From assembly GCA_000525675.1 (NCBI GenBank), contig CP002190.1, forward strand, positions 2,728,001-2,792,000: 64,000 bases of DNA, read 5' to 3'. Origin of the DNA: Bdellovibrio bacteriovorus W (lineage in GTDB: Bacteria > Bdellovibrionota > Bdellovibrionia > Bdellovibrionales > Bdellovibrionaceae). Shown here one piece after another: positions 29,118 through 51,176 of this stretch; the first letter of the stretch is position 1, and every line of letters begins with the position of its first letter. The notes under the pieces were generated by a model. The model saw nothing but the letters and a program-made list of their open reading frames with translations, was not told where the DNA came from and did not search any database. The translations under genes and the position numbers were made by a program.

Positions 29118-29909
29118 ATGACGGCGACAAGACGCAAAACCACATCCTATCTTATTATTGGCTCAGGCCGTGTCGCACGCCACTTGCTACACTATTTCCA
29201 TTTATTAAAAGAATCCCAACATCTAACGGACTCATCTAAAAGATCTGAAGCCCAAGAACTTCCATCGTGGACACTTGATTCTTGGGATCGCGCCCAAGAT
29301 CCCTTGGCTTTAGCAAGAAAGATCGAAGCTGCAGATCATATCCTGTTAGCAATTAGTGATGATGCCCTTGAAAATTTTTATTTAAAAAACATTGATGGTC
29401 TCGACAAGATCTGTGTTCATTTTTCAGGAGCTAAACAGATCCCGAACACGATTGCTGCTCATCCACTGATGACTTTTGGTCATGACCTCTATGATTTGAG
29501 CTTCTATCAACGAATTCACTTTGTAATGACTGGAGCCGATGATTTAAAAGAGGCGATCCCAGCATTTAATAACTCTTCGTCTGTTTTATTTTCAGCAGAA
29601 AAAGCCAAGTACCATGCTCTTTGTGTTATGGGCGGAAACTTCACAAATCTTTTAATCAGCAAAATGCTGCAAGAGTTTGAAGCCTATGACATCCCCCTAG
29701 AGGCCAGTCGCCTATATATTGATGCCGTGGTTGAGAATGTCTTTGCAGACCGAGGTCACTCTTTGACCGGCCCCCTAGCGCGAAAAGATCTTCAGACAAT
29801 CAACGCCAATCTCAACGCCCTTAAGTCTGACCCTTATGAAGAAATCTATGCATCCTTTGTAAATGCATTTATTCCCGATTTTTCAAAGAAGAAAGAAGGT
29901 GAATCATGA
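29118..29909 (+). CDS. panG: Rossmann/DUF2520-type oxidoreductase, candidate ketopantoate reductase
   Basis: A 263-residue NAD(P)-dependent enzyme: N-terminal nucleotide-binding motif SYLIIGSGRVARHLL, then HILLAISDDALENF, VHFSGAKQIPNTIAAHPLMTFG and a helical C-terminal domain of the DUF2520 type. It is the first gene of a six-gene operon whose other members cover every pantothenate and early CoA step except ketopantoate reduction; no PanE or IlvC is here. PanG of Francisella is a ketopantoate reductase of similar build encoded among pan genes, so the same role is inferred. The stop overlaps the panB start by four bases. Confidence 0.7.
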   Translation: MTATRRKTTSYLIIGSGRVARHLLHYFHLLKESQHLTDSSKRSEAQELPSWTLDSWDRAQDPLALARKIEAADHILLAISDDALENFYLKNIDGLDKICVHFSGAKQIPNTIAAHPLMTFGHDLYDLSFYQRIHFVMTGADDLKEAIPAFNNSSSVLFSAEKAKYHALCVMGGNFTNLLISKMLQEFEAYDIPLEASRLYIDAVVENVFADRGHSLTGPLARKDLQTINANLNALKSDPYEEIYASFVNAFIPDFSKKKEGES

Positions 29910-30697
29910 AATCAATTCTTGAATTTCAAGAGGCTAAAAAAGAAAGTCGTAAAATCTCAATGATCACTTGCTACGACTACACCTTCGCTCGCCTTGTGGC
30001 GGAAAGTAACATTGACTGTATCTTAGTGGGCGATTCTCTTGCGATGACCATGCACGGGCATAAAACAACCTTGAATGCCAATGTGAACCTGATGGCCCTA
30101 CACACAGCGGCCGTCGTGCGTGGCGCCCCTGAAAAATTTATTATCGGCGATCTTCCTTTTATGAGCTATCGCAAAAATCTCAGCAACAATATGACCGCGG
30201 CTGAAAAAATTATGAAAGCCGGTGCTCATGCCGTGAAACTAGAGGGTGTCGAAGGAAATTTAAAGCTCATCACTCATCTCGTTCAGTCAGGCGTGCCGGT
30301 GATGGGACATATCGGTCTTACTCCGCAATCTGTGCATCAGTTAGGCGGCTTTAAAGTCCAAGGTCGCAATGAAAAGGCGCAAAAAAAATTGCAAGAACAA
30401 GCTCTTGCTCTTCAAGATGCGGGAGCATTCTCGGTCGTCCTTGAATGCGTTCCTTCAAGCCTAGCCCAAGTCATTACCTCGAGCTTAGAAATTCCTACTA
30501 TTGGAATCGGTGCTGGCGTTGATTGCGATGGGCAAGTTCTTGTGCTTCAGGACATGCTTGGAATGAATAAAGATTTCCAACCAAAATTTGTTAAAAAATA
30601 CTTACAGGGTTTTGATTTAATCACTGAGGCCTTTAATCATTTTCACGGCGAAGTTATCCACGGAGATTTCCCCACAGCTAAAGAGAGCTATCAATGA
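29906..30697 (+). CDS. panB: 3-methyl-2-oxobutanoate hydroxymethyltransferase
   Basis: Forms ketopantoate from alpha-ketoisovalerate and methylene-tetrahydrofolate. Signature segments: SMITCYDYTFARLVAESNIDCILVGDSLAM (metal-binding Asp), IIGDLPFMSY, AGAHAVKLEG, PVMGHIGLTPQSVHQLGGF and IGIGAGVDCDGQVLV. Length 263 is typical. Start and stop overlap neighbours by four bases each, showing tight coupling within the operon. Confidence 0.97.
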   Translation: MKSILEFQEAKKESRKISMITCYDYTFARLVAESNIDCILVGDSLAMTMHGHKTTLNANVNLMALHTAAVVRGAPEKFIIGDLPFMSYRKNLSNNMTAAEKIMKAGAHAVKLEGVEGNLKLITHLVQSGVPVMGHIGLTPQSVHQLGGFKVQGRNEKAQKKLQEQALALQDAGAFSVVLECVPSSLAQVITSSLEIPTIGIGAGVDCDGQVLVLQDMLGMNKDFQPKFVKKYLQGFDLITEAFNHFHGEVIHGDFPTAKESYQ

Positions 30698-31449
30698 TTA
30701 AAGTCCTAAAATCCCCACAAGAAATGTTGGAATGGAGAAAATCCGCAAAGGGCTCTGTCGGATTTGTTCCCACAATGGGAGCTCTGCATGATGGACATGC
30801 CAGTCTCTTAACAAGAGCACGAGGAGAAAATGAAAATCTCGTACTCTCGATTTTCGTCAACCCCACACAGTTCAACAATCCTGATGACTTAAAAACTTAT
30901 CCAAAAACTTGGGAACAGGATCTCGCTCTCGCACAGCGTTTGGGCGTCAATGCTATTTTCTATCCACAGTTTGAAGATATGTATCCAGATAAATATCTTT
31001 ATAAAATTTCTGAGTCCTCTTTTTCTAACGAACTCGACGGCGCTCATCGTCCTGGACACTTTGATGGTGTTTTGACGATCGTTCATAAACTCCTAAGTCT
31101 TGTACAACCTCAGAGAGCTTACTTTGGTGAAAAAGACTATCAACAGCTAAAGCTTATTCAAGGAATGGTCCAGGCTTTCTTTCTCCCAGTTTCGATCGTA
31201 CCTGTTCCCACGATGCGCGAAGACTCAGGGCTTGCGATGAGTTCAAGGAATTTGCTTCTTACAGAAGAAAATCGCATCAAGGCTCCACTCATTTATAAAA
31301 CAATCACGACAGCAATCTCTGCGAACGAAGCTCAGAAGATTTTATCTGACGCTGGCTTCAAAGTGGACTACGTCGTGGATAAAGAGGGTCGTCGCTATGT
31401 CGCCGCTTTTGCTGGAAATGTAAGGTTGATTGATAATGTTGAAATCTAA
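30694..31449 (+). CDS. panC: Pantothenate synthetase
   Basis: ATP-dependent ligase joining pantoate and beta-alanine. Motifs: VGFVPTMGALHDGHASLL (HxGH nucleotide site), SIFVNPTQFN, VLTIVHKLLSLVQPQRAYFGEKDYQQL, and MREDSGLAMSSRNLLL (the KMSKS-like loop). At 251 residues it is slightly shorter than usual; the C-terminal domain is compact (VDYVVDKEGRRYVAAF) but looks complete. It overlaps both neighbours. Confidence 0.96.
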   Translation: MIKVLKSPQEMLEWRKSAKGSVGFVPTMGALHDGHASLLTRARGENENLVLSIFVNPTQFNNPDDLKTYPKTWEQDLALAQRLGVNAIFYPQFEDMYPDKYLYKISESSFSNELDGAHRPGHFDGVLTIVHKLLSLVQPQRAYFGEKDYQQLKLIQGMVQAFFLPVSIVPVPTMREDSGLAMSSRNLLLTEENRIKAPLIYKTITTAISANEAQKILSDAGFKVDYVVDKEGRRYVAAFAGNVRLIDNVEI

Positions 31450-32683
31450 AGTCTTATTTATTCTTACGGGTTCAATAGCTTGCTATAAAGCTTGTCAGGT
31501 GATTTCTCGCCTCGTGCAGTACGGTTGTGATGTTCAAGTGGTTGCCACTCCCTCTGCTTTAGAATTTGTTGGCAATGCCACCATTGAAGGCCTCACGGGC
31601 AAGCATGTGATCAGCGATCTCTTTGCTGCTGGAGATGTGATGGATCACATTCATCTCGTGCGCTGGGCAGATTTAATTTTAGTTGCACCTGCAACCGCCA
31701 ATTTTATCAATAAAGCGGCTCAAGGAGTCGCAGACGATTTAGTGCAGACTTTATTTTTGGCCCATGACTTTAAAAAACCTTTTCTCGTAGCTCCTGCCAT
31801 GAATACGACAATGTACCTTCACCCAGTCACTCAAGAATCTACGCGCAAGCTTATAAGCATGGGCGTTAAAATTCTTGAAACAGCTTCTGGCGTACTTGCT
31901 TGCGGAGAAGAAGGTTTAGGTAAGTTACTCGATCCTGATTTAATTCTTAAAGAAGTACTCGATCTCCTTCCTAGCAACACTTCCTTCGTACAAAGCCAGG
32001 AAAAGCCTCTCAAAGTCTTAATTACTGCCGGTGGCACTCAAGAACCCATCGACACTGTACGCGTTATCAGTAATTTAAGTTCGGGGAAAACTGGAGTTAT
32101 TATCTCTGAAGTTCTGACTCAACAAGGGTGTGATGTTACTTTACTTCAAGCTCACTCTTCCCAAGTGCCTAGCTCGCAATTAAAGGTCCAACGCTTCTCA
32201 AGTTTCGAAGACCTCAACGAAAAACTTGAAGATGAACTTAAAAATAAAGCCTACGACATGGTCATCCATGCCGCAGCGGTGAGCGACTACTCAGTGGAGA
32301 GCGTTGAAATTCAAGGCAAAAAATATCCGCCGATGTCTATTCCTAAGGTGAGCTCTAACGAAGAACACATGAGCATTCATCTTAAGAAGAATTTTAAAAT
32401 CGTGAATCGACTTAAAGACTACTCTCAGAACAAAGATATTGACGTGGTGGCCTTTAAATTAACCAGCCACGCATCAACAGAAGAAAAGCAACTTGCTGTG
32501 CAAAAGCTTTTTTCAGAGTCATCAGTGGATGCCGTTGTTCACAATGATCTTACGGATATAGATATTAAAAAGGGATTGCATCGCTTTACCTTGCACAGTC
32601 AAGGTGTGGAGAGATCTCTCGAAGGGCCAGATAGACTCGCCCTTGCTTTACTTGAAAGAAAACTTATTAGGAAGAACAAATGA
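31436..32683 (+). CDS. coaBC: Phosphopantothenoylcysteine decarboxylase/synthetase
   Basis: Bifunctional Dfp protein. The N-terminal flavoprotein decarboxylase (CoaC, residues 1-180) has [12 protein letters not shown], the active-site His in [32 protein letters not shown] and the Cys of the substrate flap [11 protein letters not shown]. The C-terminal synthetase (CoaB) has [25 protein letters not shown] and a Lys-rich end. The start is ATG 31436 (TTG 31430 is possible), inside the end of panC. Converts 4'-phosphopantothenate to 4'-phosphopantetheine. Confidence 0.96.
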
Positions 32684-33453
32684 TTCTCTGTCTTGATGTA
32701 GGAAACACACAAATCTATGCCGGGCTATTTGATCGCGATCAGATGGTGGCATCTTTTAGAAAAAACTCAAAAGGGGGAATTTCCTCTGATGAAACAGGCA
32801 TTTTCCTTCGCACTGCCATTCGCGAAAATGGCTTAGACCCCAGCAAGGTTAAACAAATTGCCATCTGTAGCGTTGTGCCCGAGGTGGTTTACTCTTTGCG
32901 CGGAGCTTGCCAAAAGTATTTCAATATCTCTCCATTTATTCTCCAAGCTGGCGTAAAAACGGGCCTCAAGGTGAAGTATCGCAACCCTCTTGAAGTGGGA
33001 GCCGATCGCATTGCTAACTCGATTGCCGCCTCTCACCTTTATCCGGATAGAAACCTACTTCTTGTGGATCTAGGAACTGCTACGACTTTTTGCGCGCTCT
33101 CTAAAGAAAAAGACTATCTAGGTGGATCTATTGCCGCGGGACTTAGACTCTCTATGGAGGCCTTAGAGACCAACACAGCTAAGTTAAAATCTGTCGAGAT
33201 TAAAACTATGCACGAGGCCCTTGGTCGCACAACGACAGAGAGTCTTCAGTCAGGTCTATATTTTGGACACTTAGGGACGATGAAAGAACTACTGACTCGC
33301 CTAAGCAAAGAGTGTTTCCCCGAAAATGAAAAGCCGTTCGTCATTGGTACAGGCGGTTTTGCGCATCTATTTGAAAAAGAAAAAATCTTCGATGAAATCA
33401 TTCCCGATCTTGTGTTAAAGGGTATGCTCATCGCTTTACAGTATAATAGCTAA
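32680..33453 (+). CDS. coaX: Type III pantothenate kinase
   Basis: ASKHA-fold kinase that phosphorylates pantothenate, feedback-insensitive. Phosphate motifs: [16 protein letters not shown] at the N-terminus, then [16 protein letters not shown] (pantothenate site) and [26 protein letters not shown] is the adenosine motif. Length 257 is normal. Four-base overlap with coaBC. Lies exactly where the pathway needs it between pantothenate and CoaBC. Confidence 0.96.
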
Positions 33454-33464
33454 GGACCTTTGTT

Positions 33465-33839
33465 ATGAATATTACTATGCTAAGAACAAAACTTCATCGT
33501 GCCACTGTCACCGGAGCGGATTTAAACTACGAAGGCTCTGTGAGCGTATGCCCTGACTTAATCAAAGCTTCAGGCTTTTTTATTAACGAGAAAGTGGATA
33601 TCTATAACTGTAACAACGGCGCACGTTTTTCCACTTACGTTATCAAAGGAAATAAAGGCGAGATCTGCCTCAATGGCGCAGCTGCTCGTCACGTACAAAA
33701 GGGTGATCTTGTAATTATGTGTTCTTACTGCTCCGTCGATCTAAAAGAAGCGGCCAAGCACGAACCCACAGTGGTATTTTTGAACGAGAAAAACAAGGTT
33801 AAGACTAAGAGAAAAGAAGATAGAAAAAACAATAAGTAA
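33465..33839 (+). CDS. panD: Aspartate 1-decarboxylase
   Basis: Pyruvoyl enzyme making beta-alanine from aspartate. The self-cleavage site Gly-Ser is seen in NYEGSVSVCPDL near residue 24, preceded by MLRTKLHRATVTGADL. The substrate-binding and PanD-typical CLNGAAARHVQKGDLVIMCSY follow. A Lys-rich tail closes the 124-residue chain. Last gene of the operon, with 11 bases after coaX; a strong terminator follows. Confidence 0.96.
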   Translation: MNITMLRTKLHRATVTGADLNYEGSVSVCPDLIKASGFFINEKVDIYNCNNGARFSTYVIKGNKGEICLNGAAARHVQKGDLVIMCSYCSVDLKEAAKHEPTVVFLNEKNKVKTKRKEDRKNNK

Positions 33840-35004: not shown

Positions 35005-35033
35005 TTGCCAGTAATGAAACGAGTACATAAATT
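35005..35033 (+). promoter_or_regulatory. Promoter of the riboswitch-endonuclease transcript
   Basis: TTGCCA (35005-35010), 17-base spacer, TAAATT (35028-35033). The expected start near 35040 falls seven bases before the first base of the riboswitch P1 helix, so promoter and aptamer positions support each other. Confidence 0.6.
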
Positions 35034-35045
35034 TTTCACAGATTT

Positions 35046-35110
35046 ACCGTATATGCTGCTAATAAGGCGCAGCGTTTCTACTAGACACCTCAAATGTCTA
35101 ACTATGGAGG
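35046..35110 (+). promoter_or_regulatory. Purine riboswitch, guanine class
   Basis: A complete purine aptamer. P1 CCGTA (35047-35051) with TATGG (35103-35107); J1/2 TAT; P2 GCTGC (35055-35059) with GCAGC (35069-35073); L2 ends in AATAAGG; J2/3 is the invariant GTTTCTAC (35074-35081); P3 TAGACA with TGTCTA; L3 CCTCAAA, whose CC can pair with the GG of L2; J3/1 AC. Bases matching U22, U47, U51 and C74 of the xpt aptamer are all present; C74 (35102) predicts guanine or hypoxanthine rather than adenine. P1 shares two G with the GGAGG ribosome binding site (35106-35110), implying translational control of the nuclease gene that follows. Confidence 0.88.
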
Positions 35111-35114
35111 CACC

Positions 35115-35978
35115 TTGAAACATTACATTATATCGCTTTTGGCCCTTTTAGTGGCTTGTACGAGTTTTGCGAGTAGCAACCTTAACTCTTCAAAACATCC
35201 TTACTACGGCGAAAAATTTTACCTTGATCTCAGCTCAGGTGCCAGCAACGAACCCCTCCTTAATTCCATCAAAAATGTTCTCAGAAGTTACCATCTTAAA
35301 GTTGACAATAGTTTCGATCAAATTGTTAACAACTGCTCCGGATCTAAGTGCTACAATCACAACCCTATCGGATATGACAATGCCAGAGTCTTCCTTCTTC
35401 TTGGTCACTACTTAGTAGAAATGGAAAACGAACAATATGGCTTCCGTGATGTTTACTGTGACACCGTTAAAACTGCCAAAGACTTCCGCGGTGTAAACCC
35501 AAATCCACGCAGACTTCCAGATTCAAACGTTATTAATATCGAGCACTCATGGCCACAAAGCCGCTTCACTGGAAAATATAGCAAAACAGCGCAAAAATCA
35601 GATTTGCACCATCTTTTTCCAACTGATTCCCGCCTCAACTCCACTCGCGGCAATGGCCCTTTCGGCGAAGTTCGCAAAGACACCAAATTCTTTAATTGTG
35701 GTTCCGCGAGATTCGGCATCGCTACTACTAGCAACTTGCAGGTTTTTGAACCGCCAGCGAATCACAAAGGCAATCTAGCAAGAGCGATGTTCTACTTCTC
35801 TGTTCGCTACGATATGCAAATCTCTGCTGCCGAAGAAGCTTATTTCCGCAAATGGGCTAAAGAAGATCCAATTGATGAAGATGAGATCGAGCGCAATAAC
35901 TCAATTTACGCAGCTCAAGGGAATCGCAATCCATTTATCGATTTCCCTGATTTAGAGGATAAAATTCAAAGATTTTAA
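35115..35978 (+). CDS. endA: Secreted endonuclease I (EndA/NucM family)
   Basis: Exported nuclease of the endonuclease I family, which degrades DNA (and often RNA) outside the cytoplasm. Signal peptide: LKHYIISLLALLVACTSFAS. The His-Me-finger active site is INIEHSWPQSRF, followed by DLHHLFPTDSRLNSTRGNGPFG, both hallmarks of the family. The start is taken as TTG 35115, five bases after GGAGG; the in-frame ATG at 35094 lies inside loop L3 of the riboswitch aptamer and cannot be the start of a regulated message. It could degrade prey or environmental DNA, with a purine signal controlling its translation. Confidence 0.93.
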   Translation: MKHYIISLLALLVACTSFASSNLNSSKHPYYGEKFYLDLSSGASNEPLLNSIKNVLRSYHLKVDNSFDQIVNNCSGSKCYNHNPIGYDNARVFLLLGHYLVEMENEQYGFRDVYCDTVKTAKDFRGVNPNPRRLPDSNVINIEHSWPQSRFTGKYSKTAQKSDLHHLFPTDSRLNSTRGNGPFGEVRKDTKFFNCGSARFGIATTSNLQVFEPPANHKGNLARAMFYFSVRYDMQISAAEEAYFRKWAKEDPIDEDEIERNNSIYAAQGNRNPFIDFPDLEDKIQRF

Positions 35979-36002: not shown

Positions 36003-36037
36003 TAAGAGCCATGGGACTTTCAGTTTCATGGCTCTTA
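36003..36037 (+). promoter_or_regulatory. Hairpin with the ABC-F start codon in its stem
   Basis: Perfect 11-bp arms TAAGAGCCATG (36003-36013) and CATGGCTCTTA (36027-36037), 13-base loop. The ATG start (36028-36030) lies in the 3' arm, and no ribosome binding site precedes it. An out-of-frame ATG (36011) in the 5' arm opens a 39-codon reading frame that overlaps the gene start. Confidence 0.5.
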
Positions 36038-50772: not shown

Positions 50773-50790
50773 CCCAAAAAGAAGGTGGGA

Positions 50791-51176
50791 GTTCGGTTTT
50801 GCTGTAAGCCGGATTCTGTCCAAATCACCAGGTCCCATAAGTGTCCCGATAATAATAGATGATCATTCCTCTAGGAGTTGCATCACTACAACCCTCAAGC
50901 GATCTTACCCGGAGACTACGGACTGGCCGTCCTACTAATGTCCCCCTATTTGATCTTGCTCCGCGCAGAGTTTGACTGTTTTCACTCCAGCGACTCCCCA
51001 AAAAGCTCCCGTTCCCGCTTTAAGGATCATAGTCCTGGACATTCTCTCTGTTCCACTGTTCCTGACATTACTGCCGAGGGGCGTTACCCCTTGCGCCGCC
51101 ATATGGAGTCCGGACTTTCCTCCCCTTTTTCAATAGTTTAACCATATTATTAGGGCGATCATCCGCAAAACCGAAC
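50791..51176 (-). ncRNA. rnpB: RNase P RNA
   Basis: Catalytic RNA of RNase P, which trims tRNA 5' leaders. On the minus strand, GAGGAAAGTCCGGACTCC (the universal P4 5' strand region) is near the 5' end, and ACAGAATCCGGCTTACAG is near the 3' end, pairing as P4. The extreme ends GTTCGGTTTTGC-type sequences (50791-50802 and 51164-51176) pair perfectly as P1, giving the boundaries. Length about 386 nt fits a type A RNA. Confidence 0.96.

Follow-up and report, generated by a model that had tools for sequence, protein, structure and literature searches.

Guanine riboswitches are regulators of purine supply within the cell, and ligand binding to purine aptamers stabilizes the P1 helix. Within the aptamer, U51 confers specificity for the base rather than for a 2'-deoxynucleoside, and the guanine riboswitch aptamer has been crystallized with hypoxanthine. 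In the add adenine riboswitch of Vibrio vulnificus, a purine aptamer bearing U74 controls translation as an ON switch through a separate expression platform. In Bacteroidetes, 2'-dG-II riboswitches are reported to precede genes for endonuclease I, ComEC, and phospholipase D; they are marked by C51, by a junction pair that is G-C, and by an insertion of 2 nt in J3/1 (PMC8872408). Direct translation attenuation, with the ribosome binding site (RBS) contained in the aptamer core, has been described for SAM-I, TPP, and preQ1 riboswitches; in SAM-I the RBS is built into the 3' side of P1 (PMC2258182).

This study analyzed a 64,000-nt stretch of the Bdellovibrio bacteriovorus W chromosome (the window) and the related genomes of the Bdellovibrionota. 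Comparative sequence evidence suggests, with a probability of roughly 0.8, that the leader of the endonuclease I gene in the window is a guanine riboswitch that would turn the gene OFF by direct translational occlusion, within a regulon for extracellular nucleic-acid digestion. In the literature searched, no report places a guanine riboswitch ahead of a nuclease gene in Bdellovibrio.

Results

A cmscan search over the window placed a full-model match to the Purine family (RF00167) at 35027-35124 on the forward strand, with 57.8 bits (E 2.4e-7) against a gathering cut-off of 37 bits, and no rival Rfam family matched this interval even at E<=10. The preliminary description had claimed a full purine aptamer and had suggested checking it with this same Infernal model; the above-threshold match bears the claim out, together with U51, C74, and the contact between L2 GG and L3 CC, which is present by direct reading. 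Direct reading also places J2/3, GTTTCTAC (= GUUUCUAC), which includes U51, at 35074-35081 (+). The specificity base C74, which would pair with guanine, lies at 35102 (+). According to the cmscan alignment and to pair counts over 60 relatives, the P1 5' strand occupies 35044-35051 (+) and the P1 3' strand, UAUGGAGG, occupies 35103-35110 (+) and holds the Shine-Dalgarno (SD) motif GGAGG (35106-35110). The P1 pairs in the window are 35051-35103, 35050-35104, 35049-35105, 35048-35106, and 35047-35107, beyond which an A-A mismatch is followed by two U-G wobbles. The SD therefore contributes two C-G pairs to the strong part of P1 and otherwise faces the mismatch and wobbles, leaving it only partially buried, a point against the occlusion reading; the earlier statement that P1 shares bases with GGAGG holds in that pairs 35048-35106 and 35047-35107 put the SD partly inside the helix.

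The gene downstream (35115-35978, +) encodes an endA-like secreted endonuclease I, as had been proposed: its product matches Endonuclease_1 (PF04231) with an E of 9e-37 and 127.5 bits against a cut-off of 25, and its N-terminus reads as a signal-peptide-like segment. Translation most likely starts at TTG 35115, in the arrangement GGAGG-CACC-TTG, yielding MKHYIISLLALLVACTSFASS; TTG 35115 is preferred over ATG 35094, which sits within the aptamer. The promoter named in the preliminary description, TTGCCA-17-TAAATT (35005-35033, +), is present as a sequence, but matches of this kind occur no more often than chance allows (2 found against 2.3 expected from shuffles), and it is thus a possible promoter at chance level by itself. 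Its sole support is a TTGCCA at nearly equal distance in the leader of the endA paralogue L001. On the 3' side of endA, a terminator-like hairpin with a 16-pair stem and a T-rich tail (36003-36037, +) extends into the following gene, which encodes an ABC-F type ATPase, and covers its ATG (36028), such that this codon falls within the 3' arm of the hairpin. Elsewhere in the window, inspection of translations showed a pantothenate/CoA cluster at 29906-33839, with panB, panC, coaBC, a type III pantothenate kinase, and a panD-like gene in series, and a bacterial class A RNase P RNA was found at 50789-51174 on the reverse strand (209 bits).

The structure was then assessed across an alignment of 60 diverse aptamers from relatives. 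The three-way junction of P1, P2, and P3 was paired in 89.8% of cells, with two-sided changes in 18 of the 22 pairs, and the covariation score was 0.642 as compared with 0.228 for shuffled and at most 0.133 for slid alignments (the shuffles ignore kinship). Compensatory changes were seen in every P2 and P3 pair. P1 was weaker than the other helices, with 78.8% of cells paired and two-sided changes in 6/8 pairs; RNAalifold did not predict it from the aligned aptamers, whereas the pair counts did support it. C74 and the L2-L3 GG/CC contact were invariant in the 60 aligned aptamers, the junction-proximal P1 pair was A-U in all 60, and U51 was present in 150 of 150 aptamers. At base 73, L001 (1528-1580) and many others have U where A is usual (GUCUAU vs. 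GACUAU); this base, a neighbor of the binding pocket, might tune affinity.

The position of the SD was similarly conserved. Among 138 leaders of genes other than the EamA type, all but 2 have an SD-like motif that begins no more than 7 nt past C74, as opposed to none of the 12 EamA-type leaders, and the start codon in nuclease leaders mostly follows 3-10 nt past the SD. Within the SD-bearing part of P1, cognate arms formed 3.3 of 5 pairs compared to 2.6 for swapped arms (z 5.7, kinship ignored). ViennaRNA folding of the window leader, taken from its presumed start site and run with P1 either forced or blocked, gave no clean ON/OFF change in SD accessibility; because this folding was ambiguous, the occlusion mechanism rests on the SD position and the covariation.

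The aptamer was detected in 57 of the 66 genomes of the family and in 93 of the 369 genomes of the phylum. All matches were taken with their surroundings and the 149 readable downstream proteins were clustered, with the Pfam scan applied to cluster representatives only. Secreted nucleases or nuclease-like proteins follow 134 of the 149 aptamers: 76 are small secreted HNH proteins, 39 are endonuclease I, 11 are PD-(D/E)XK-like (EVK-motif) proteins of about 195 residues, 6 are EEP/DNase I-like, and 2 are EndoU. Of the remainder, secreted DUF3465 proteins account for 4 and EamA transporters/permeases for 11. A guanine-type aptamer thus precedes at least five unrelated kinds of predicted secreted nuclease across the phylum, the EVK-motif kind being nuclease-like. 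The preliminary description had regarded a purine sensor on a digestive nuclease as an unusual regulon member; the phylum-wide link and the 2'-dG-II precedent go beyond its scope. The survey of endA leaders in related genomes that it had outlined showed the aptamer before 39 of the 94 endonuclease I genes of the family and in 37 of the 56 genomes having such a gene; among HNH genes of the family, the proportion was 48/58. The two sequence-based outcomes that the preliminary description had named as refuting, a missing covariance-model match and an aptamer not conserved ahead of endA orthologues, were thus not observed.

In the HNH family, alignment A3 has invariant D, H, and N residues that are compatible with an HNH site, and a profile of the family against the PDB gave a marginal match to an HNH domain and nothing more. 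In the EVK-motif family, GELD...EVKCW is invariant in 11/11 members, and its residues E75/D77 and E93-V-K95, likewise invariant, are compatible with a PD-(D/E)XK site; the AlphaFold model is weak (pLDDT 50) with the order of elements expected for this fold, and the search against the PDB returned no significant match. This family is accordingly described as nuclease-like only. SD-overlapping guanine-type aptamers precede the DUF3465 genes at L018, L027, L062, L094, L161, and L188; judged by their regulation, the secreted DUF3465 proteins may act on nucleic acids, and the DUF3465 structure model (pLDDT 36) was unusable. A second aptamer type, which precedes an EamA/DMT permease in several Bdellovibrionota (L034, L057, L091, L092, L099, L100, L112, L114, L118, L137, and L140), mostly has J2/3 GUCUCUAC and a start codon 60-90 nt downstream, and the permease is possibly a purine exporter or importer on another expression platform.

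A strict pattern of the aptamer core plus GGAG was also searched across approximately 85,000 named species, giving 42 matches. For 34 of these, a protein from the same clusters (the nuclease/DUF3465 set) starts within a few bases, and the records are named Bdellovibrio (including B. bacteriovorus strain kdesi), Bdellovibrionales, Bdellovibrionaceae, Pseudobdellovibrio, Pseudobacteriovorax, or unplaced proteobacterial bins. The other 8, from Firmicutes, Fusobacteria, and a single Flavobacteriia bin, have their start codons 41-238 nt away, and several precede genes that by inspection are purE-like, guaA-like, FGAM synthase-like, or NCS2-like.

Within the 3.0 Mb genome that contains the window, there are three purine aptamers (L001, L002, and L003), and all three lie upstream of secreted nucleases; none is followed by purine synthesis or transport genes. 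L002 is the element before the window endA, another endonuclease I gene follows L001, and the gene after L003 encodes a secreted protein of 158 residues that carries an HNH motif (KIDHYIPLCAGGSNDIKNLWPQH) and matches Pfam HNH models weakly. Of the four endonuclease I genes in this genome, two have the aptamer and two lack it. A PNP-type gene beside a pyrimidine nucleoside phosphorylase-type gene was identified by PF01048 and inspection, and a search of this genome for an NCS2 purine permease found none.

Discussion

Combined, these results point to a mechanism in which plentiful intracellular guanine would bind the aptamer through C74 and U51 and lock the weak P1 helix; with the SD held in P1 or at its immediate edge, the secreted nuclease would go untranslated. 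Falling guanine would let P1 open, and the nuclease would then be made, secreted, and put to the digestion of prey or environmental DNA. A purine nucleoside phosphorylase would free guanine from imported nucleosides and close the loop, providing product feedback on DNA digestion, and the use of one switch type over unrelated secreted nucleases in the Bdellovibrionota would constitute an extracellular digestion regulon. We infer guanine binding, the OFF direction, and the feedback loop; guanine is the probable ligand from U51 and C74, and hypoxanthine may also act. Since the SD sits in the 3' strand of P1 and the start codon follows only a few bases later, the most economical interpretation is OFF regulation by occlusion without a separate platform. 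The proposed path from guanine through P1 to a hidden RBS is favored because P1 overlaps the SD in almost every nuclease leader but not in the EamA leaders, because P1 covaries, and because the same element stands before several unrelated secreted nuclease families.

Other readings of the leader were weighed against the same observations. That the aptamer is a functionless relic or a chance likeness is extremely improbable given its 57.8 bits, the compensatory changes that 60 sequences show at every P2 and P3 pair, and its recurrence before unrelated nuclease families. Sensing of a different purine in vivo through the same OFF mechanism, for example hypoxanthine or 2'-deoxyguanosine, is unlikely, though the best placed of the alternatives: guanine riboswitches tolerate hypoxanthine, and a deoxynucleoside ligand would tie the switch to DNA digestion more directly. 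The occurrence of 2'-dG-II riboswitches before endonuclease I and ComEC genes (PMC8872408) leads in the same direction, but the nucleoside-favoring C51 is absent from 150/150 aptamers, the junction-proximal P1 pair is A-U in 60/60, and J3/1 has no insertion of the 2'-dG-II kind. Specificity for 2'-dG or adenine was rejected on the pocket bases (U51 and C74, respectively).

An ON switch, with guanine signaling the presence of nucleic acid and raising nuclease synthesis, would agree with product induction being a common strategy for digestive enzymes and with the ON behavior of adenine riboswitches. Some variant purine riboswitches also act as ON switches (xanthine-II, PMC9295807). This direction is nevertheless highly unlikely here, as the SD lies on the ligand-stabilized 3' strand of P1 in nearly every nuclease leader, and start codons mostly 3-10 nt past the SD leave no space for an alternative platform.

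The guanine OFF reading can also be set beside published work on predation. The relative G003 appears from its sequence to be B. bacteriovorus HD100: both bd1244 primers (PMC3593177) match it exactly, and its three endonuclease I genes have the order and places expected for bd0934, bd1244, and bd3507. Among these three, the aptamer occurs only at the bd3507 position, and bd3507 is almost certainly one HD100 target of the riboswitch. A second HD100 aptamer precedes an HNH gene near 2.005 Mb, which, judging from map position and family, is not among the named HD100 nucleases in the literature examined. Deletion of bd0934 and bd3507 unexpectedly raised extracellular DNase activity while mRNA of the tested nucleases rose only slightly, which the authors thought could reflect an unidentified nuclease or increased translation (PMC7925074). 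Guanine feedback acting through translation predicts such a rise, with the HNH nuclease as a candidate. Similarly, the level of bd3507 transcript has risen by about 1 h (PMC7925074) and the protein is up about 5-fold at 3-4 h (PMC12546842); this delay is expected if translation is held back early, although slow accumulation of a secreted protein could also give it. The fits to the DNase compensation and to the bd3507 timing are circumstantial. We place at even odds the wider proposal that a guanine-gated secreted-nuclease regulon of the Bdellovibrionota, covering at least five unrelated folds, serves as a feedback timer of prey-DNA digestion and explains the HD100 DNase rise by derepressed translation of the HNH nuclease, itself unstudied.

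If true, the guanine riboswitch class would extend from metabolism to feeding behavior, the switches of this phylum being almost only on exported enzymes, and purine aptamers would have been used convergently with the Bacteroidetes 2'-dG-II riboswitches to meter DNA digestion. Free guanine would offer a concrete cue for sequential nuclease release in predation, and the published anomaly of the DNase rise on deletion of bd0934 and bd3507 becomes testable. Additionally, regulation alone flags the EVK-motif family and DUF3465 as new candidate nucleases.

Comparison with Known Riboswitches

The literature searched yielded no description of such a regulon and platform for the guanine class. The closest precedent, the 2'-dG-II riboswitch, belongs to the same fold family and also precedes endonuclease I, but it carries C51 where U51 is found here (150/150) and a G-C rather than an A-U junction-proximal P1 pair (60/60), its two-nt J3/1 insertion is absent from alignment A1, and it occurs in Bacteroidetes, a different phylum from the Bdellovibrionota. 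With all three hallmarks absent, membership in the 2'-dG-II class was rejected. The add adenine riboswitch is alike in its translational control by a purine aptamer and unlike in its U74 (C here in 60/60 aligned), its ON direction, and its separate platform. SAM-I, TPP, and preQ1 riboswitches are named as the common cases of direct attenuation and purine riboswitches are not (PMC2258182), whereas here this arrangement is the rule for a guanine-type aptamer. Guanine riboswitches of the xpt-pbuX type (RF00167) share the architecture, U51, C74, the L2-L3 contact, and the expected OFF logic; they differ in targeting purine synthesis, salvage, and transport genes rather than secreted nucleases, and in acting through a downstream terminator rather than an SD within the P1 3' strand. 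Judged by their sequences, the aptamers described here belong to the ordinary guanine type; what is unusual is their regulon and their expression platform.
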